Shown here piece after piece: positions 30,562-36,890 of a DNA stretch of 64,000 bases; position 1 is the stretch's first letter, and the number at the start of each line of letters is the position of its first letter. The translations under genes were made by a program, and so were the position numbers. Location: contig NZ_CP077639.1 in assembly GCF_019056395.1 (NCBI RefSeq), forward strand, positions 3,226,001 through 3,290,000, read 5' to 3'. The notes beneath the pieces are model-generated. The model was given only the letters and a program-made list of their open reading frames with translations, had not been told where the DNA came from and ran no database searches. Origin of the DNA: Terribacillus sp. DMT04 (GTDB lineage Bacteria; Bacillota; Bacilli; Bacillales; Amphibacillaceae).

Positions 30562-31665
30562 TTACCTGTTTAACTGCTGGTCTGCAACAACATGCACATC
30601 AATGTTACGCGTCTGCCGCATAATCGTATTCACAATGGACCCTTTCCAAATTTCCTCCCACCTCGTCCGAGCTGATTGTCCAAGCAATACCTGTGTAATG
30701 TAGTATTTTTTTGCTTCTGCTACTATTGCATGCGCCACACGCTTGTTGGTTATTTTTAATAAAAAATGCGCGTTAAACTTTGCACAAAGTCCGCGTATAT
30801 ATGTGATTTTCTCTTCATCTGTCTCTTTACTGCAGCTTATATGCAATACATAGAGTTCGGCTCTTAAACGATTTGCCATTCTGTATCCGCGTCGTACGAG
30901 CCTCTCTGCTGTATTCAGATGCTGTACACAAATTAGAATCTTTTCATGCACGCCTATTGGACCTTTAAAGTCTGCCCCGCTCTGGCGTTCTAGTTTCTCA
31001 TCTACCTCATCAGCTATTTCCCGAAGCGCCAGCTCACGCAGTGCTGAAAGATTTGTCAGCTTAAAATAATGCAGCAAACTCTTTTCAATACGCTCGGCCG
31101 GATAAATTTTTCCCTCTCTCAATCGTTTTTGTAATGTTTCTGGTGTTGTATCAATCAGTTGGATTTCGTCTGCTGTCTGAATAAATAAATCCGGTACACG
31201 TTCATTCACCCGGACATTCGTAATGTTTTGTACGATATCGTATACGCTTTCCAGATGCTGAATATTAACTGCAGCAAGCACATCGATGCCTGCATCCAAA
31301 AGCTCCGTTACATCTTGATAACGTTTGGCATGTTTACTGCCAGGAATGTTCGTATGTGCCAATTCGTCAATCAGAACCACTTTCGGCTGACGCAATAAGA
31401 TTGCGTCTACATGTAATTCTTGATAGGAGCGTCCCTTGTAATGAACTGTCTGTAATGCAACTTGCTCCAGTCCTGACAATTGGGCTTCCGTTTCCATTCT
31501 CCCGTGTGTCTCAATTAAACCAATCACAACATCTACATTTTCTTCCAGCATTTGCTTTGCATCAATCAGCATCTTATACGTCTTTCCAACGCCAGGTGCA
31601 GCGCCTATATATAACGTCAAACGCCCTCTCTTTGAATTGGATACCGCCTCTTCATTTATCTTCAT
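30562..31665 (-). CDS. kdpD: Short KdpD: sensor domain without histidine kinase
   Basis: A 367-residue protein equal to the N-terminal cytoplasmic part of KdpD. It has the KdpD domain with Walker A GAAPGVGKT (22-30) and IDELAHTN, then a universal-stress-protein-like domain (about 240-365). The transmembrane, GAF and kinase parts of full KdpD (about 900 residues) are absent, and no kdpE follows. Short KdpDs occur in other Bacillaceae kdp operons; the USP domain of KdpD is known to bind c-di-AMP in Staphylococcus. Its start overlaps the kdpC stop (ATGA). With a c-di-AMP riboswitch at the head of the operon, a nucleotide-sensing role is plausible. Confidence 0.9.
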   Translation of the reverse strand: MKINEEAVSNSKRGRLTLYIGAAPGVGKTYKMLIDAKQMLEENVDVVIGLIETHGRMETEAQLSGLEQVALQTVHYKGRSYQELHVDAILLRQPKVVLIDELAHTNIPGSKHAKRYQDVTELLDAGIDVLAAVNIQHLESVYDIVQNITNVRVNERVPDLFIQTADEIQLIDTTPETLQKRLREGKIYPAERIEKSLLHYFKLTNLSALRELALREIADEVDEKLERQSGADFKGPIGVHEKILICVQHLNTAERLVRRGYRMANRLRAELYVLHISCSKETDEEKITYIRGLCAKFNAHFLLKITNKRVAHAIVAEAKKYYITQVLLGQSARTRWEEIWKGSIVNTIMRQTRNIDVHVVADQQLNR

Positions 31666-32234
31666 CGCGCCGCTTCTATATCCATATTTAACTGCAAGAC
31701 ATTTACTGCCGGAGAACCTACCAGCTCTTCCATTGTCGTTGTCCGATTTTGTTCAATTAAATGGTATAGTTCTTTGTGGGTAATACCGCTGGCTTCCGCG
31801 ATACGCGGCACCTGATATATCGCTGCTTCGACAGATATGTGCGGATCTAATCCAGATGCTGAATTTGTAATTAAATCAGCAGGAACTGATTCTCCATCAG
31901 GATTTAATAGCTGCTGTTCTTGGTTTGCTTCCGCTGTTCTTGCTGCTAGTTCTGGATTCGACGGGGCATAGTTTGGGCTTCCAGAACCGGATGCATCATA
32001 TGCGATACTGGAAATCCTTCCGTGAAATAAGCCCTCGTCAGAGAAGGACTGCCCAATCAACGAAGAACCTATAACTCTCCCATTCTCATCTTCTATCAGA
32101 CTTCCATTTGCTTGGTGAGGGAAAAACAACATACCGATTCCCGTAACTAGCAAAGGATAAATCACAGCACAAACAACCAAGCATACGGCACTTAATCTTA
32201 GGACAGGCAGAAGCTGGTTCATATGGTTAGTCAT
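31662..32234 (-). CDS. kdpC: Potassium-transporting ATPase subunit C
   Basis: A 190-residue subunit with one N-terminal membrane helix (VCLVVCAVIYPLLVTGIG) and an extracytoplasmic domain. Family landmarks are IGQSFSDEGLFHGR, SGSGSPNYAPSNPEL and DLITNSASGLDPHIS. KdpC stabilises KdpB in the high-affinity K+ pump. It lies 11 bases after kdpB and overlaps kdpD by four. Confidence 0.95.
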   Translation of the reverse strand: MTNHMNQLLPVLRLSAVCLVVCAVIYPLLVTGIGMLFFPHQANGSLIEDENGRVIGSSLIGQSFSDEGLFHGRISSIAYDASGSGSPNYAPSNPELAARTAEANQEQQLLNPDGESVPADLITNSASGLDPHISVEAAIYQVPRIAEASGITHKELYHLIEQNRTTTMEELVGSPAVNVLQLNMDIEAAR

Positions 32235-32245
32235 ATTGTCTCCTC

Positions 32246-34306
32246 CTAAAGAAACGAACTCAATATTAAATCAATCACTTTAATTCCGAGAAACGGTATC
32301 AATACGCCGCCCAAACCATAAATAAACAAATTCTTACGCAGCAGCTTGTCAGCAGAGACAGGTTTGTATGCAACACCCTTGATCGCGAGTGGAACTAGTG
32401 CAGGTATGATCAGGCCATTGAATAACAAAGCCGATAAGATTGCTGAAGCAGGTGATTCCAGCTGCATAATATTTAAAGCGTTCATTTCCGGGATAGCTAA
32501 CATAAACAGTGCGGGAATAATTGCAAAGTATTTTGCTAAGTCATTAGCAATACTAAAAGTTGTTAATGCACCTCGCGTCATTAACAGCTGCTTCCCAATG
32601 GCAACAACTTCTATCATTTTCGTTGGATCTGAATCTAAGTCGATCATATTTGCCGCTTCCTTAGCTGCAGTTGTCCCACTATTCATCGCAATTCCAACAT
32701 CGGCCTGAGCTAATGCTGGTGCATCATTTGTTCCGTCCCCTGTCATAGCCACCAGCTTCCCTTGTGCCTGTTCCCTCTTAATTACTTCAATCTTATCTTC
32801 TGGCGTACTCTCTGCAATATAGTCATCGACACCTGCTTCTTTTGCAATTGTGGCTGCAGTGAGGGGATTGTCACCCGTACACATAACCGTTTTAATACCC
32901 ATCTGCCGCAGTTCATCGAAGCGTTCACGCATGCCAGGCTTAACAGTATCTTTCAAATATATTAACCCTAGCAGTTCTGTATCCACCGCAACTGCTAATG
33001 GAGTACCGCCTTCTTTGGCAATGCTTTCTGCTTTATCTTTCAAATCGGCCGGTACACTTCCACCTCGTTCTGTTACCCAAGTCTGCACAGCAGCAACTGC
33101 CCCTTTGCGATAACTGCCCCCTTCTGCCAAATCTATTCCGCTCATCTTAGTTTCAGCTTGGAAAGGAACAAATGTGGCTGCATCCCATCCTCTCTCTTCT
33201 ATTGTTACACCCCTTGCATTCGCTAAACTGATGACAGAGCGCCCCTCCGGTGTCTCATCTTTCCAGGAAGTAATGACAGAAGCTTGCATTAAGCTGTACG
33301 CAGAGACTGATTGTAATGGAATGAAAGCTGCTGCCATCCGATTTCCAAAAGTGATCGTCCCGGTTTTATCCAAAATGATCGTATCAATATCTCCCGCTGC
33401 TTCCACTGCACGGCCAGACTTCGCAAGTACGTTAAAACGCGTGACTCGATCCATCCCTGCGATTCCGATTGCACTGAGCAGACCGCCAATAGTAGTTGGA
33501 ATTAAACAAACCAGCAGTGCAACAAGCATTCCTGTATCCAGCGCAAAGCCAATATAATTTGTAAAGAACGGCAACGTAATAACAACGAACATAAAAATGA
33601 TAGTCAAACTGATCAATACAGTATTTAATGCAATTTCATTCGGTGTCTTCTTTCGATCCGCACCTTCCACGAGTGCAATCATACGATCTAAGAAGCTCTC
33701 TCCCGGCTGGCTCGTTATCTCAATAGTCAGCTCGTCGCTTATAATTGTCGTACCGCCTGTAACAGAGTTAAAATCGCCTCCTGCTTCCTTCAAAACAGGT
33801 GCTGATTCTCCTGTGATAGCTGATTCATCGACACTTGCAATACCGGCTATTATGGTACCGTCCCCAGGAATTACTTCTCCTTCTTTGACACGTACTATAT
33901 CACCTTTCCGTAAAGCAGCAGAAGCTATCATCACTTCTTTTCCACGCGATACACGCCTTGCCTGCGTTTCCTGTTTTGTGTGCTTCAACGTGTCTGCTTG
34001 GGCTTTTCCTCTTCCTTCTGCTACTGATTCCGCTGCATTTGCAAATAACACTGTTAGAAGGAGAATGAACGAAACACTCCAATAAAATGAACTGCTCATC
34101 GTTCTTGATGGATTATCAGGTAAAATCGCCAGCAGCACTGTGATAATAAATCCAAGCTCTACAATGAAAAGGATTGGATTTTTCACCATATAAACAGGGT
34201 TGAGCTTTACTACTGCTCCTACAAAAGCATTCTTTATCATGTTCTTTGTGAATAAACGGGTAGGAGAAGTGCTTTCCTCCCTAGCAGCTTGCATTGTCAT
34301 TATCAT
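32246..34306 (-). CDS. kdpB: Potassium-transporting P-type ATPase subunit B
   Basis: A 686-residue P-type ATPase, the catalytic subunit of KdpFABC. The phosphorylated Asp313 is in DKTGT (313-317), TGES is at 165-168, and the hinge [16 protein letters not shown] follows in the P domain. TAGGAGAGTGA precedes the ATG at 34306. It is eight bases after kdpA. ATP hydrolysis here drives K+ uptake through KdpA when external K+ is low. Confidence 0.97.
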
Positions 34307-34314
34307 TCACTCTC

Positions 34315-35961
34315 CTATAAAGTTACGTATTCTGCTATTGGTCCTAAAACAAGAACAGGCAGGAATGTTAGTGCACCCACTAGAAAGAAAGTGCCGACTA
34401 AAAGACTTGCAAACAATGGCTGGTCAGTTCGCAAGCTGCCGATGCTTTCTCGAACTGCTGGTTTGCCAGCGAGGGACGCAGCCACTGCTAGTAATAAAAT
34501 GATAGATAAATAGCGTCCCAAAAACATTACAACTCCTGTTAAGATGTTCCAGAATACCGTTGCATCTCCGAGTCCTTCAAAACCAGATCCATTATTTGCA
34601 GCAGATGACGTAATCTCATACAAAACCTGCGTCAGGCCGTGATATCCAGGATTTGATATAGCTCCATTACCTGCTGGAAGATAAATAGCCAGTGCAGTAC
34701 CAATCAAAATAAGTACTGGCTGGATCAGCAGTGCAGCCGCCAGCAGCTTCATTTCTTTACCCTCCAGTTTCTTACCCAGAAGTGCAGGTGTACGGCCCAC
34801 CATTAAACCAGCAAGGAAAACCGCAATCATTACATACAGCATGACATTCATAAACCCTGCCCCAACACCGCCAAAGACTGTATTCAACAGCATATTCCCA
34901 AGTGCCAGCATGCCTGTAATTGGGCTTAATGTATCATGCATCGTGTTGACTGCCCCCGTCTCCGTCGCAGTTGTAATCACCGCGTACATCACACTGCCGA
35001 TTACTCCGAAACGAGTTTCTTTCCCTTCCATGACAGCTTGTTGGATTAGCGGATTTACTTGAATTTCTGTAATTAAGCTTGCTATTCCCATGATGAAGAA
35101 TACAACCGTCATAGCCCAAAAGAGCATGGCACCTTGCTTTGGCTTATTAATCATTTTTCCATATGTGAATGGAAGCGATGCTGGCAGAAGCAGCATCAGC
35201 CAATACTGCAGCATATTTGTATAAGCATTTGGATTCTCAAAAGGATGCGCAGAGTTAACTCCGAAAAATCCACCGCCATTGTTGCCCAGCTCTTTTATAA
35301 CTAGAAAAGAACTAACAGGTCCGCGAAGAATAGTTTGTTCTGCTCCATTTAGACCCGTCGCATGTACAACTGCTGAAAATGTCTGCGGCACACCGAGAGC
35401 GATAAATATTACAGCCATCACGAAAGCTAAAGGTACAAATAATCGTGTAAGCGAACGCAAAAATGTCTCATAAAAATTTCCGATTGGTTTGCCGCCAAGC
35501 AGCCGGATAAAACCGATTGCACTAGACAATGCAGTAGCCGGAGCAATAAACATCATGAACAAAACAGCTGCTGTTTGAGAAAAGAGTGATAGTCCAGATT
35601 CTCCGCTATAGTGCTGCAAATCGGTATTTGTCATAAAGCTCACTGCTGTATTAAATGCTAGCGCCGGATCCATTCCTGCTATATGTAATGGATTTAATGG
35701 CAGCACACCTTGAAAACGGAAGATAGCATAAACAAACAACAAAATCACAAAATTTAACAGCAGCATGGCAGTTAAAAACTGCTTCCAGTTTTGCTGTTCT
35801 TTCCTCAAACCAGCTAATCGGTATAAGAAATTTTCAACTGGAAGAAATATTCTATCCATTCGAGAATCCGAAAATGCAGCAGCCATGTACAAACCCATTG
35901 GCTTTAACGTACATCCAATCAAGATTAGGATTACAGCCAAGACAAGCAGTGAAACCATCAT
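34315..35961 (-). CDS. kdpA: Potassium-transporting ATPase subunit A
   Basis: A 548-residue K+-selecting subunit with about ten membrane helices, related to the Trk/Ktr channel family. Selectivity-filter-like loops are present: TNTDLQHYSGE, GNNGGGFFGVNSAHPFENP, and TETGAVNTMHDTLSP. GAAGGAAGG lies upstream of ATG 35961. It follows kdpF by 18 bases. Confidence 0.96.
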   Translation of the reverse strand: MMVSLLVLAVILILIGCTLKPMGLYMAAAFSDSRMDRIFLPVENFLYRLAGLRKEQQNWKQFLTAMLLLNFVILLFVYAIFRFQGVLPLNPLHIAGMDPALAFNTAVSFMTNTDLQHYSGESGLSLFSQTAAVLFMMFIAPATALSSAIGFIRLLGGKPIGNFYETFLRSLTRLFVPLAFVMAVIFIALGVPQTFSAVVHATGLNGAEQTILRGPVSSFLVIKELGNNGGGFFGVNSAHPFENPNAYTNMLQYWLMLLLPASLPFTYGKMINKPKQGAMLFWAMTVVFFIMGIASLITEIQVNPLIQQAVMEGKETRFGVIGSVMYAVITTATETGAVNTMHDTLSPITGMLALGNMLLNTVFGGVGAGFMNVMLYVMIAVFLAGLMVGRTPALLGKKLEGKEMKLLAAALLIQPVLILIGTALAIYLPAGNGAISNPGYHGLTQVLYEITSSAANNGSGFEGLGDATVFWNILTGVVMFLGRYLSIILLLAVAASLAGKPAVRESIGSLRTDQPLFASLLVGTFFLVGALTFLPVLVLGPIAEYVTL

Positions 35962-35979: not shown

Positions 35980-36066
35980 TTAAAATTTTTCAGGATGGAA
36001 CAAAGCATAAACAAGATAAAGAATGACAGCAGCACCAATAACAAGCAATCCCGCTTGCACCATCAT
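35980..36066 (-). CDS. kdpF: KdpF small subunit
   Basis: A 28-residue single-helix peptide (MMVQAGLLVIGAAVILYLVYALF, then HPEKF), with the diagnostic YLVYAL..PEKF ending of KdpF, which stabilises the KdpABC complex in the membrane. GGGAGGA precedes the ATG at 36066. It is too short for usual gene finders. The start codon overlaps the stop of another tiny gene upstream. Confidence 0.9.
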   Translation of the reverse strand: MMVQAGLLVIGAAVILYLVYALFHPEKF

Positions 36067-36164
36067 CGTGTTCCTCCCTTCTCAATTAATTGGACTGCAG
36101 CCCTAAGCAATACTGATAATCCAGCAAATAAAAGCGTAATTAAACTAATCATTATAAGATCCAT
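36063..36164 (-). CDS. 33-residue membrane peptide heading the kdp operon
   Basis: ATG at 36164 is preceded by AAAGGAGATAACC, a strong site. The peptide is a hydrophobic helix (MDLIMISLITLLFAGLSVLL) with the amphipathic tail RAAVQLIEKGGTR. Its TGA overlaps the kdpF ATG, so translation is coupled. It is not KdpF, which follows. By position it is a candidate extra small subunit or regulator of the Kdp pump; I know of no name for it. Confidence 0.7.
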   Translation of the reverse strand: MDLIMISLITLLFAGLSVLLRAAVQLIEKGGTR

Positions 36165-36207
36165 GGTTATCTCCTTTCTCCTTTTGATCTACACCCTAAA
36201 AAAGTAC

Positions 36208-36250
36208 ATAAAAAAGAAGTCACAGAAGAGGGCCCTCTTCTGTGACTTCT
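36208..36250 (-). terminator. Riboswitch-controlled terminator of the kdp operon
   Basis: Near-perfect 18-bp stem (AGAAGTCACAGAAGAGGG and its complement, 36215-36250) with a T run on the minus strand. It lies between the riboswitch and the first kdp ORF, where premature termination would switch the operon off. Confidence 0.9.
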
Positions 36251-36287
36251 GGGCATAACAAAATAAACGTGTGCCTATCACATTTTT

Positions 36288-36427
36288 GGCTTCCTCTCGA
36301 ACGCTTGCGAAGTTAGCTGACGGATTCGGGCCAGAGAGTAGCCCTACTCATTTAGAGATTCACCCCATGTAACATATCTGTTACGGTTGGTTCCCCCGCT
36401 TCCTGTTAAAGGAATTAAGCGATTAAG
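36288..36427 (-). promoter_or_regulatory. c-di-AMP riboswitch (ydaO/yuaA class)
   Basis: Read on the minus strand the conserved ydaO elements occur in order: AACAGGAAGCGGGGGAACCAA, ATGGGGTGAAT, TAGGGCTACTC followed by GCCCGAATCCGTCAGCTAAC and CGAGAGG (each piece read separately). In this class c-di-AMP binding favours termination. c-di-AMP is high when K+ is plentiful, so the kdp operon would be expressed when K+ and c-di-AMP fall. The terminator lies directly downstream. Confidence 0.93.
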
Positions 36428-36890
36428 ATAACTATGAAGTTTTTTGTTCAATCTCTGAAGATGAACTTATTTTACGCCTGGCTTTCAGAATAGTAAAACG
36501 CTCATAAAACGGATTAAGACCAGAAACATAACCAAATAACCCCAAATAACAGAAAATAGTCGACCAAAATCAACCGCTGCTTAAATTATCGTAGTTTCTC
36601 GCTGATTTTCTTGCTCTTTCTTATTGTGATTAAAATCTAATAATTCAGTCTTTTTATCTTATTAGGTATGATCTAAACTCTGTGCATCTCCATTTTAGGT
36701 AATAACGTAGAATCGTAAATTAAATTCACCCCTCTTCCCCGGGAATGATTGGCACTGTTTTTCTCCATCTCGATACCGATCTTTTTATGGGGAAGAAACG
36801 TAGTGCAAGAAGCAAGAAGCTAGAGTCACTATCACCATAGTATGATTAGCCGGTCTTCCGTCCATACTGCTTGCTAGTGAGGTGGTAACG
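36428..36890. other. Intergenic stretch between kdp leader and glycosidase gene
   Basis: About 460 AT-rich bases that must hold the kdp promoter (minus) and the promoter of the glycoside-hydrolase-like gene (plus). TTGAAC followed by a poor -10 is seen on the minus strand near 36435-36460. No ORF, RNA motif or clear palindrome was found. Confidence 0.5.

Follow-up and report, generated by a model that had tools for sequence, protein, structure and literature searches.

A small gene beside kdpF in Terribacillus and other bacteria: a candidate for an accessory subunit of the Kdp pump

A 33-codon gene ahead of kdpF

The kdp operon of Terribacillus sp. DMT04 has a short open reading frame (ORF) just ahead of kdpF, and an earlier note on this DNA had proposed that it is a new small gene whose hydrophobic product serves either as an additional Kdp subunit or as a leader peptide. 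Is it a gene, how widely does it accompany kdpF, and which of the two roles suits it better? The 64,000 nucleotides analysed here (the window) hold the following features, which on the minus strand run in the order riboswitch, terminator, small ORF, kdpF, kdpA, kdpB, kdpC, short kdpD:

36287..36431, minus strand: c-di-AMP (ydaO/yuaA) riboswitch aptamer (RF00379, 101 bits, E 8e-23)
36215..36250, minus strand: 16-pair intrinsic terminator hairpin with a T tract, 3' of the aptamer (pattern scan)
36171..36176, minus strand: Shine-Dalgarno sequence AAGGAG of the small ORF, 6 nt 5' of its ATG (sequence and script)
36164..36063, minus strand: small ORF with ATG start, 33 codons encoding 33 amino acids, MDLIMISLITLLFAGLSVLLRAAVQLIEKGGTR (ORF list and sequence)
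36073..36077, minus strand: Shine-Dalgarno sequence GGAGG of kdpF, within the final codons of the small ORF (sequence and script)
35980..36066, minus strand: kdpF, 28 amino acids (PF09604, E 3.8e-8; TIGR02115 barely above its cut-off)
34315..35961, minus strand: kdpA (PF03814, E 5.8e-210)
32246..34306, minus strand: kdpB (P-type ATPase domains and position)
31662..32234, minus strand: kdpC (PF02669, E 4.9e-63)
30562..31665, minus strand: short kdpD, 367 amino acids (PF02702, E 2e-90; Usp PF00582, E 1.3e-7)

The anatomy that the earlier note had described is borne out by this map, namely a strong ribosome binding site (AAGGAG, 6 nt 5' of the ATG), a location between the riboswitch terminator (36250..36215) and kdpF, and a TGA (36065..36063) that overlaps the kdpF ATG (36066..36064). 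The coordinates 36063-36164 hold as well, and to them we add the minus strand, which had been absent from the claim. A second ATG lies in frame within kdpF at 36063, and the terminator hairpin folds at -26.5 kcal/mol (z -6.4). The short KdpD, which gave no histidine-kinase domain match in the domain scan and combines KdpD with Usp, resembles the shorter KdpD that, in the available text of PMC11018627, controls KdpFABC post-translationally under c-di-AMP.

The small ORF is a gene and not a chance reading frame. kdpA was found in 5 of the 159 genomes of the family, all five belonging to the window's genus (it was not found in 5 of the 10 genomes of that genus), and all five carry the ORF with 33 codons from a matching ATG and a stop sharing 1 or 4 nt with the start of kdpF. 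Compared with each of the other four Terribacillus, the window gave pS values of 0.60-0.91 and pN values of 0.29-0.37, the loci L002 and L003 differ at 6 of their 25 synonymous sites and at 3 of the 74 nonsynonymous ones, and codon positions 1, 2 and 3 differ 81, 64 and 162 times when summed over ten Terribacillus pairs (five species, so that the pairs are not independent). This excess of pS over pN and of third-position changes is what one expects of a conserved protein. In the seven distant pairs it also holds for the core of the ORF, final codons excluded, with a pS of 0.57-0.97 versus a pN of 0.32-0.41. When all 2409 stop-to-stop ORFs in the six frames of the window were scored with a profile of 61 sequences devoid of Terribacillus, the small ORF ranked first (15.8 bits, E 0.0012) and the runner-up reached only 6.6 bits. 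A Shine-Dalgarno core of 5 nt or longer stands ahead of the small ORF in 134 of 159 cases; among control positions within kdpA, 51 of 795 had one. A non-coding artefact might be suspected from the length of only 33 codons and from the lack of a name for the ORF in Pfam or NCBIfam; it is contradicted by the codon-position and pS/pN signal, by the top rank in the window and by a strand control at 10 bits, in which the forward strand matched at 192 of 233 loci (duplicates included) and the reverse strand at none of 233 (maximum 5.6), and we give it next to no credence. In the two loci of genome G132 (L005, L006), kdpA is in two pieces, one with an in-frame TGA, and the small ORF and kdpF are open.

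The alignments A1 and A2 are almost free of gaps over about 27 columns and share a signature that opens with M-x(0-2)-D, continues as a hydrophobic stretch in which a Phe is common and closes with a basic/acidic end (for example CDRL or WC(D/E)(K/R)), beyond which many Bacilli have a longer charged tail. At least 90% of the 46 Bacilli rows have the early Asp. AlphaFold2 models the protein as one helix spanning residues 2-30 (mean pLDDT 91.6), and it is predicted to insert in the membrane. The window ORF matched no Pfam or NCBIfam family at E 1, KdpF models included, while representatives and two alignments drew just weak, unrelated matches from these databases (E at least 0.05) and a PDB sequence search with a rhizobial member returned nothing at E 10. 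Among 16 annotated plasmid loci with the ORF, one has a coding sequence with the same stop in its gene table, which is incomplete; this is a 65-residue 'hypothetical protein' with a distant start in Arthrobacter (L165).

Distribution of the gene and its place beside kdpF

We examined 233 kdpA loci, of which 199 are distinct. A match to the ORF profile together with KdpF was present at 159 of them, KdpF alone at 33 and neither at six; at the remaining locus (L045) the ORF matched and KdpF fell below threshold, with a KdpF-like ORF still visible. No ORF match occurred among the 199 loci where a KdpF-like ORF was absent. The threshold of 8 bits was chosen after L212, at 8.9 bits, was found to have a plainly similar ORF. 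The two classes are well spaced, with 158 of the 160 matches at 10 bits or more, three below 12 bits (L209, L212, L224) and a top score of 6.0 among the other 39 loci. The profile used for the tally comprises 65 sequences and is partly circular, because its members were picked by position within the same loci; among loci L181-L220, which are Paenibacillaceae fetched after the members had been fixed, 39 of 40 scored at least 8 bits, the exception being L206. As the plasmid loci were hand-picked for variety, the tallies are not to be read as frequencies.

The earlier note had made its claim depend on conservation of the peptide upstream of kdpF in relatives with the same operon, and the relatives uphold it. 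The ORF profile matched at all 5 Terribacillus loci and at all 58 other loci of the order Bacillales (55 from genomes and three from plasmids; kdpA matches occurred in 58 of 397 genomes of the order, with the fragmentary G204 and G492 left out). One locus counted as positive, L144 (G392), matches in its second half only, in a frame without a start codon and beside an intact kdpF; this small ORF looks broken, either as a broken copy or through a sequencing error. Paenibacillaceae (our inferred label for family f48, since the Bacillota were grouped by kinship codes) have a kdpA match in 152 of 197 genomes, 147 of them above the cut-off, and 72 of the 73 loci read carry the ORF; in L206, kdpA is present and both kdpF and the small-ORF match are missing together. 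Other Bacillota match at 7 of 40 loci and lack the match at 33. The Bacillota outside Bacilli include divergent forms of the small ORF at 8-21 bits (L223, L226, L229, L224).

Conservation beyond the order was seen as well, with the ORF beside kdpF in four other phyla: Actinomycetota (4 of 4 loci), Deinococcota (4 of 4), Bacteroidota (2 of 2) and Pseudomonadota, where it was found in 7 of 8 alphaproteobacterial loci, KdpF being likewise not found in the eighth (L180), and in the single betaproteobacterial locus. The ORF is thus present at 18 of the 18 kdpF-bearing loci of these groups (alpha and beta for the Pseudomonadota). The profile matched neither of two gammaproteobacterial loci, nor the one locus each of Halobacterium and Lactiplantibacillus, and E. 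coli K-12 (L164) gave no match.

Searching the 159 family genomes yielded five matches below E 1e-6, all at the kdp loci of the five genomes with kdpA, followed by one at 0.003; four of the five Terribacillus sequences are in that profile, whose shortness leaves room for distant copies. In whole-genome searches of the genus, a Bacilli profile without Terribacillus (A3) recovered no kdp copy at E 0.3, and a non-Bacilli profile (A4) recovered one of the five, in G132 (E 0.005). With these searches mostly negative, the membership of the divergent Terribacillus form in the family leans on position as well as on sequence. A single scan of genome contigs found one locus only, that of Terribacillus saccharophilus (L007).

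Across the loci compared, the constant feature is that the ORF adjoins kdpF. Its stop and the kdpF start share 4 nt in 63 of 159 loci and 1 nt in 30, and are 0-30 nt apart in 61 and 59-121 nt apart in three; one of the spaced copies, L174 (D. ficus), follows kdpB and lies 121 nt 5' of kdpF. In the remaining two, L075 (Deinococcus sp. KNUC1210) and L167 (Allomeiothermus), the ORF stands 3' of kdpF, between kdpF and kdpA. The kdpF Shine-Dalgarno sequence falls inside the small ORF in 110 of 159 loci, and part of the composition of the C-terminal tail may therefore reflect this site. The window has one c-di-AMP riboswitch and loci L124, L135, L067, L076 and L077 have two in tandem before the small ORF and kdpF; in L067, on a megaplasmid of Niallia taxi, 19 tRNA genes (54-1875) lie directly 5' of the riboswitches and the kdp operon.

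On a FastTree phylogeny of 197 KdpA proteins, presence of the ORF needs 11 changes, versus 35.2 in shuffles. ORF-bearing proteins fall on both sides of the midpoint, and a block of 19 Bacillota loci together with E. coli is devoid of the ORF. The tree says only that presence of the ORF tracks the KdpA lineage, the gene being old or repeatedly spread, as its long branches do not separate gain from loss. We also computed mean-field couplings (DCA; 158 loci, Neff 75), where 50 of 11934 ORF-KdpA pairs exceeded z 4, no excess compared with 466 of 103294 non-local pairs within KdpA, and where five of the six ORF-KdpF pairs above z 4 (of 546) fell on one KdpF column; for both reasons the couplings were not used as evidence.

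Candidate roles of the small protein

Sequence comparison makes it fairly likely that the small protein is an accessory (fifth), single-helix Kdp subunit beside KdpF. Such a subunit would be expected to come from a conserved coding gene with one predicted membrane helix that occurs only with the pump genes, and this is what we found, for the last point in 159 genomes at E 1e-6. We infer its association with the pump from its linkage to kdpF and from its absence wherever kdpF was not found. Against this stand the 33 of 199 loci that have KdpF without the ORF, and E. coli K-12. The 'additional Kdp subunit' of the earlier note is thus supported in part, as the best reading of the comparisons.

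The other role proposed there, a leader peptide responding to the riboswitch or to low potassium, fares much worse. It is suggested by the location of the ORF in a long leader that runs from the c-di-AMP riboswitch to kdpF; however, the ORF starts (36164) downstream of the terminator (36250..36215) rather than upstream of it as an attenuator peptide would, and the stretch of RNA between 36200 and the ORF's end is no more stably folded than shuffled sequence (z 1.9). In the DNA examined, which is short upstream in many loci, RF00379 was found in 0 of 20 loci outside Bacilli and in 22 of 40 loci within Bacilli, leaving 18 there without a match; all 60 match the ORF. Because the 20 loci outside Bacilli keep the ORF with no RF00379 match and because it lies 3' of kdpF in the two Deinococcota loci L075 and L167, we consider a leader peptide very unlikely. 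A role in cis, in which ribosomes are brought to kdpF by translating the ORF and the peptide has little function of its own, has more to commend it, since in 93 of 159 loci the stop shares 1 or 4 nt with the kdpF start and the kdpF Shine-Dalgarno sequence lies within the ORF in 110. Coupling of this kind would not call for the purifying selection that also acts outside the final codons (core pS 0.57-0.97, pN 0.32-0.41) or for the Asp conserved in the N-terminal region (at least 90% of 46 Bacilli rows), and it does not suit copies that are kept 3' of kdpF (L075, L167) or 121 nt 5' of it (L174). We regard it as unlikely that the gene acts in cis only.

Small one-helix proteins such as MgrB and phospholamban regulate kinases and P-type ATPases, and the operon in the window ends in a short KdpD, so that the product could instead be a small membrane protein that regulates KdpD or the phosphorylation of the pump, rather than a stable subunit. 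Yet the ORF is present alongside differing regulator genes, among them a HAMP-type kinase gene transcribed divergently from kdpF (L075), a gene for a universal stress protein following kdpC (L069) and KdpD with a response regulator upstream (L169), and a KdpF-like ORF accompanied it wherever it occurred among the 199 loci; a regulator accordingly seems improbable, more so than the role in cis.

The small gene is probably co-transcribed with kdpF, as their positions suggest, and translational coupling, to judge from the overlapping anatomy, would yield the small protein and KdpF in near-equal amounts. As an accessory subunit, the small helix would sit within the membrane part of KdpFABC and may stabilise the pump or tune its activity. 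KdpF is the model for such a role: in E. coli it is described as a part of the Kdp complex that stabilises it. In Terribacillus sp. DMT04, high c-di-AMP would turn off the whole unit, small ORF included, through the riboswitch. KdpF, of about 28 residues, and the small protein are both single-helix products of the same operon; the latter differs in its early Asp, in having no PEKF end and in being encoded by a separate gene beside kdpF. One-helix proteins are described, in the source passages available, as associated with large membrane complexes (CydX, AcrZ) and with P-type ATPases (phospholamban); what the small protein has in common with them is the single helix, and its own place in a complex is putative.

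Relation to KdpZ and meaning for the Kdp pump

The kdp operon of Alicyclobacillus acidocaldarius reportedly reads kdpZFABC-N, and KdpZ and KdpY are said to be small and hydrophobic. KdpZ, which we take to be defined by its position as a small ORF directly 5' of kdpF, has a counterpart in the window, where a small ORF directly precedes kdpF and the order small ORF, F, A, B, C, short KdpD equals the reported Z-F-A-B-C-N. The small ORF, likened to it by gene position and order, is probably KdpZ. The Kdp transcript of Clostridium acetobutylicum, as given in the available text of PMC5401905, is kdpZYABCXDE. With kdpZ and kdpY thus already named ahead of kdpA, it is doubtful that the gene is new, as the earlier note had it: the name kdpZ likely predates it, and its spread across phyla was not found in the literature searched. 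That search, mostly short of full texts, returned no description of the ORF family beyond the name kdpZ, and the main text of a Sinorhizobium small-proteome paper does not mention kdp. The divergent forms in L223, L226, L229 and L224 might be a place to look for a link to the Clostridium kdpZ.

Published accounts of kdp leaders have room for such a gene. In the parts of the sources available, the 143 bp from terminator to kdpF in B. thuringiensis are termed a 5'-UTR (PMC6488665) and a 120-bp 5'-UTR precedes kdpF in Mycobacterium smegmatis (PMC5401905); by length alone, the small ORF would fit in both. The plasmid-borne kdpFABC of Bacillus anthracis is described as a working transporter in E. 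coli in the available text of PMC11302148, which leaves the ORF unmentioned.

Quite possibly, and we suggest this tentatively, the ancestral Kdp of many bacteria consisted of five proteins, one of which later disappeared from the E. coli lineage and from most of the other Bacillota. Kdp is a model for the hybrid of a P-type ATPase and a channel. The window KdpA matched three KdpA sequences in the PDB, presumably all from E. coli, whose structures would show the pump without the small protein. If the suggestion is true, the pump seen in the solved structures is a reduced form, and the partnership of the one-helix protein with KdpF is old and was inherited across several phyla. Reconstitutions, clones that start at kdpF and '5-prime UTR' annotations may then omit a subunit in many non-enteric operons.
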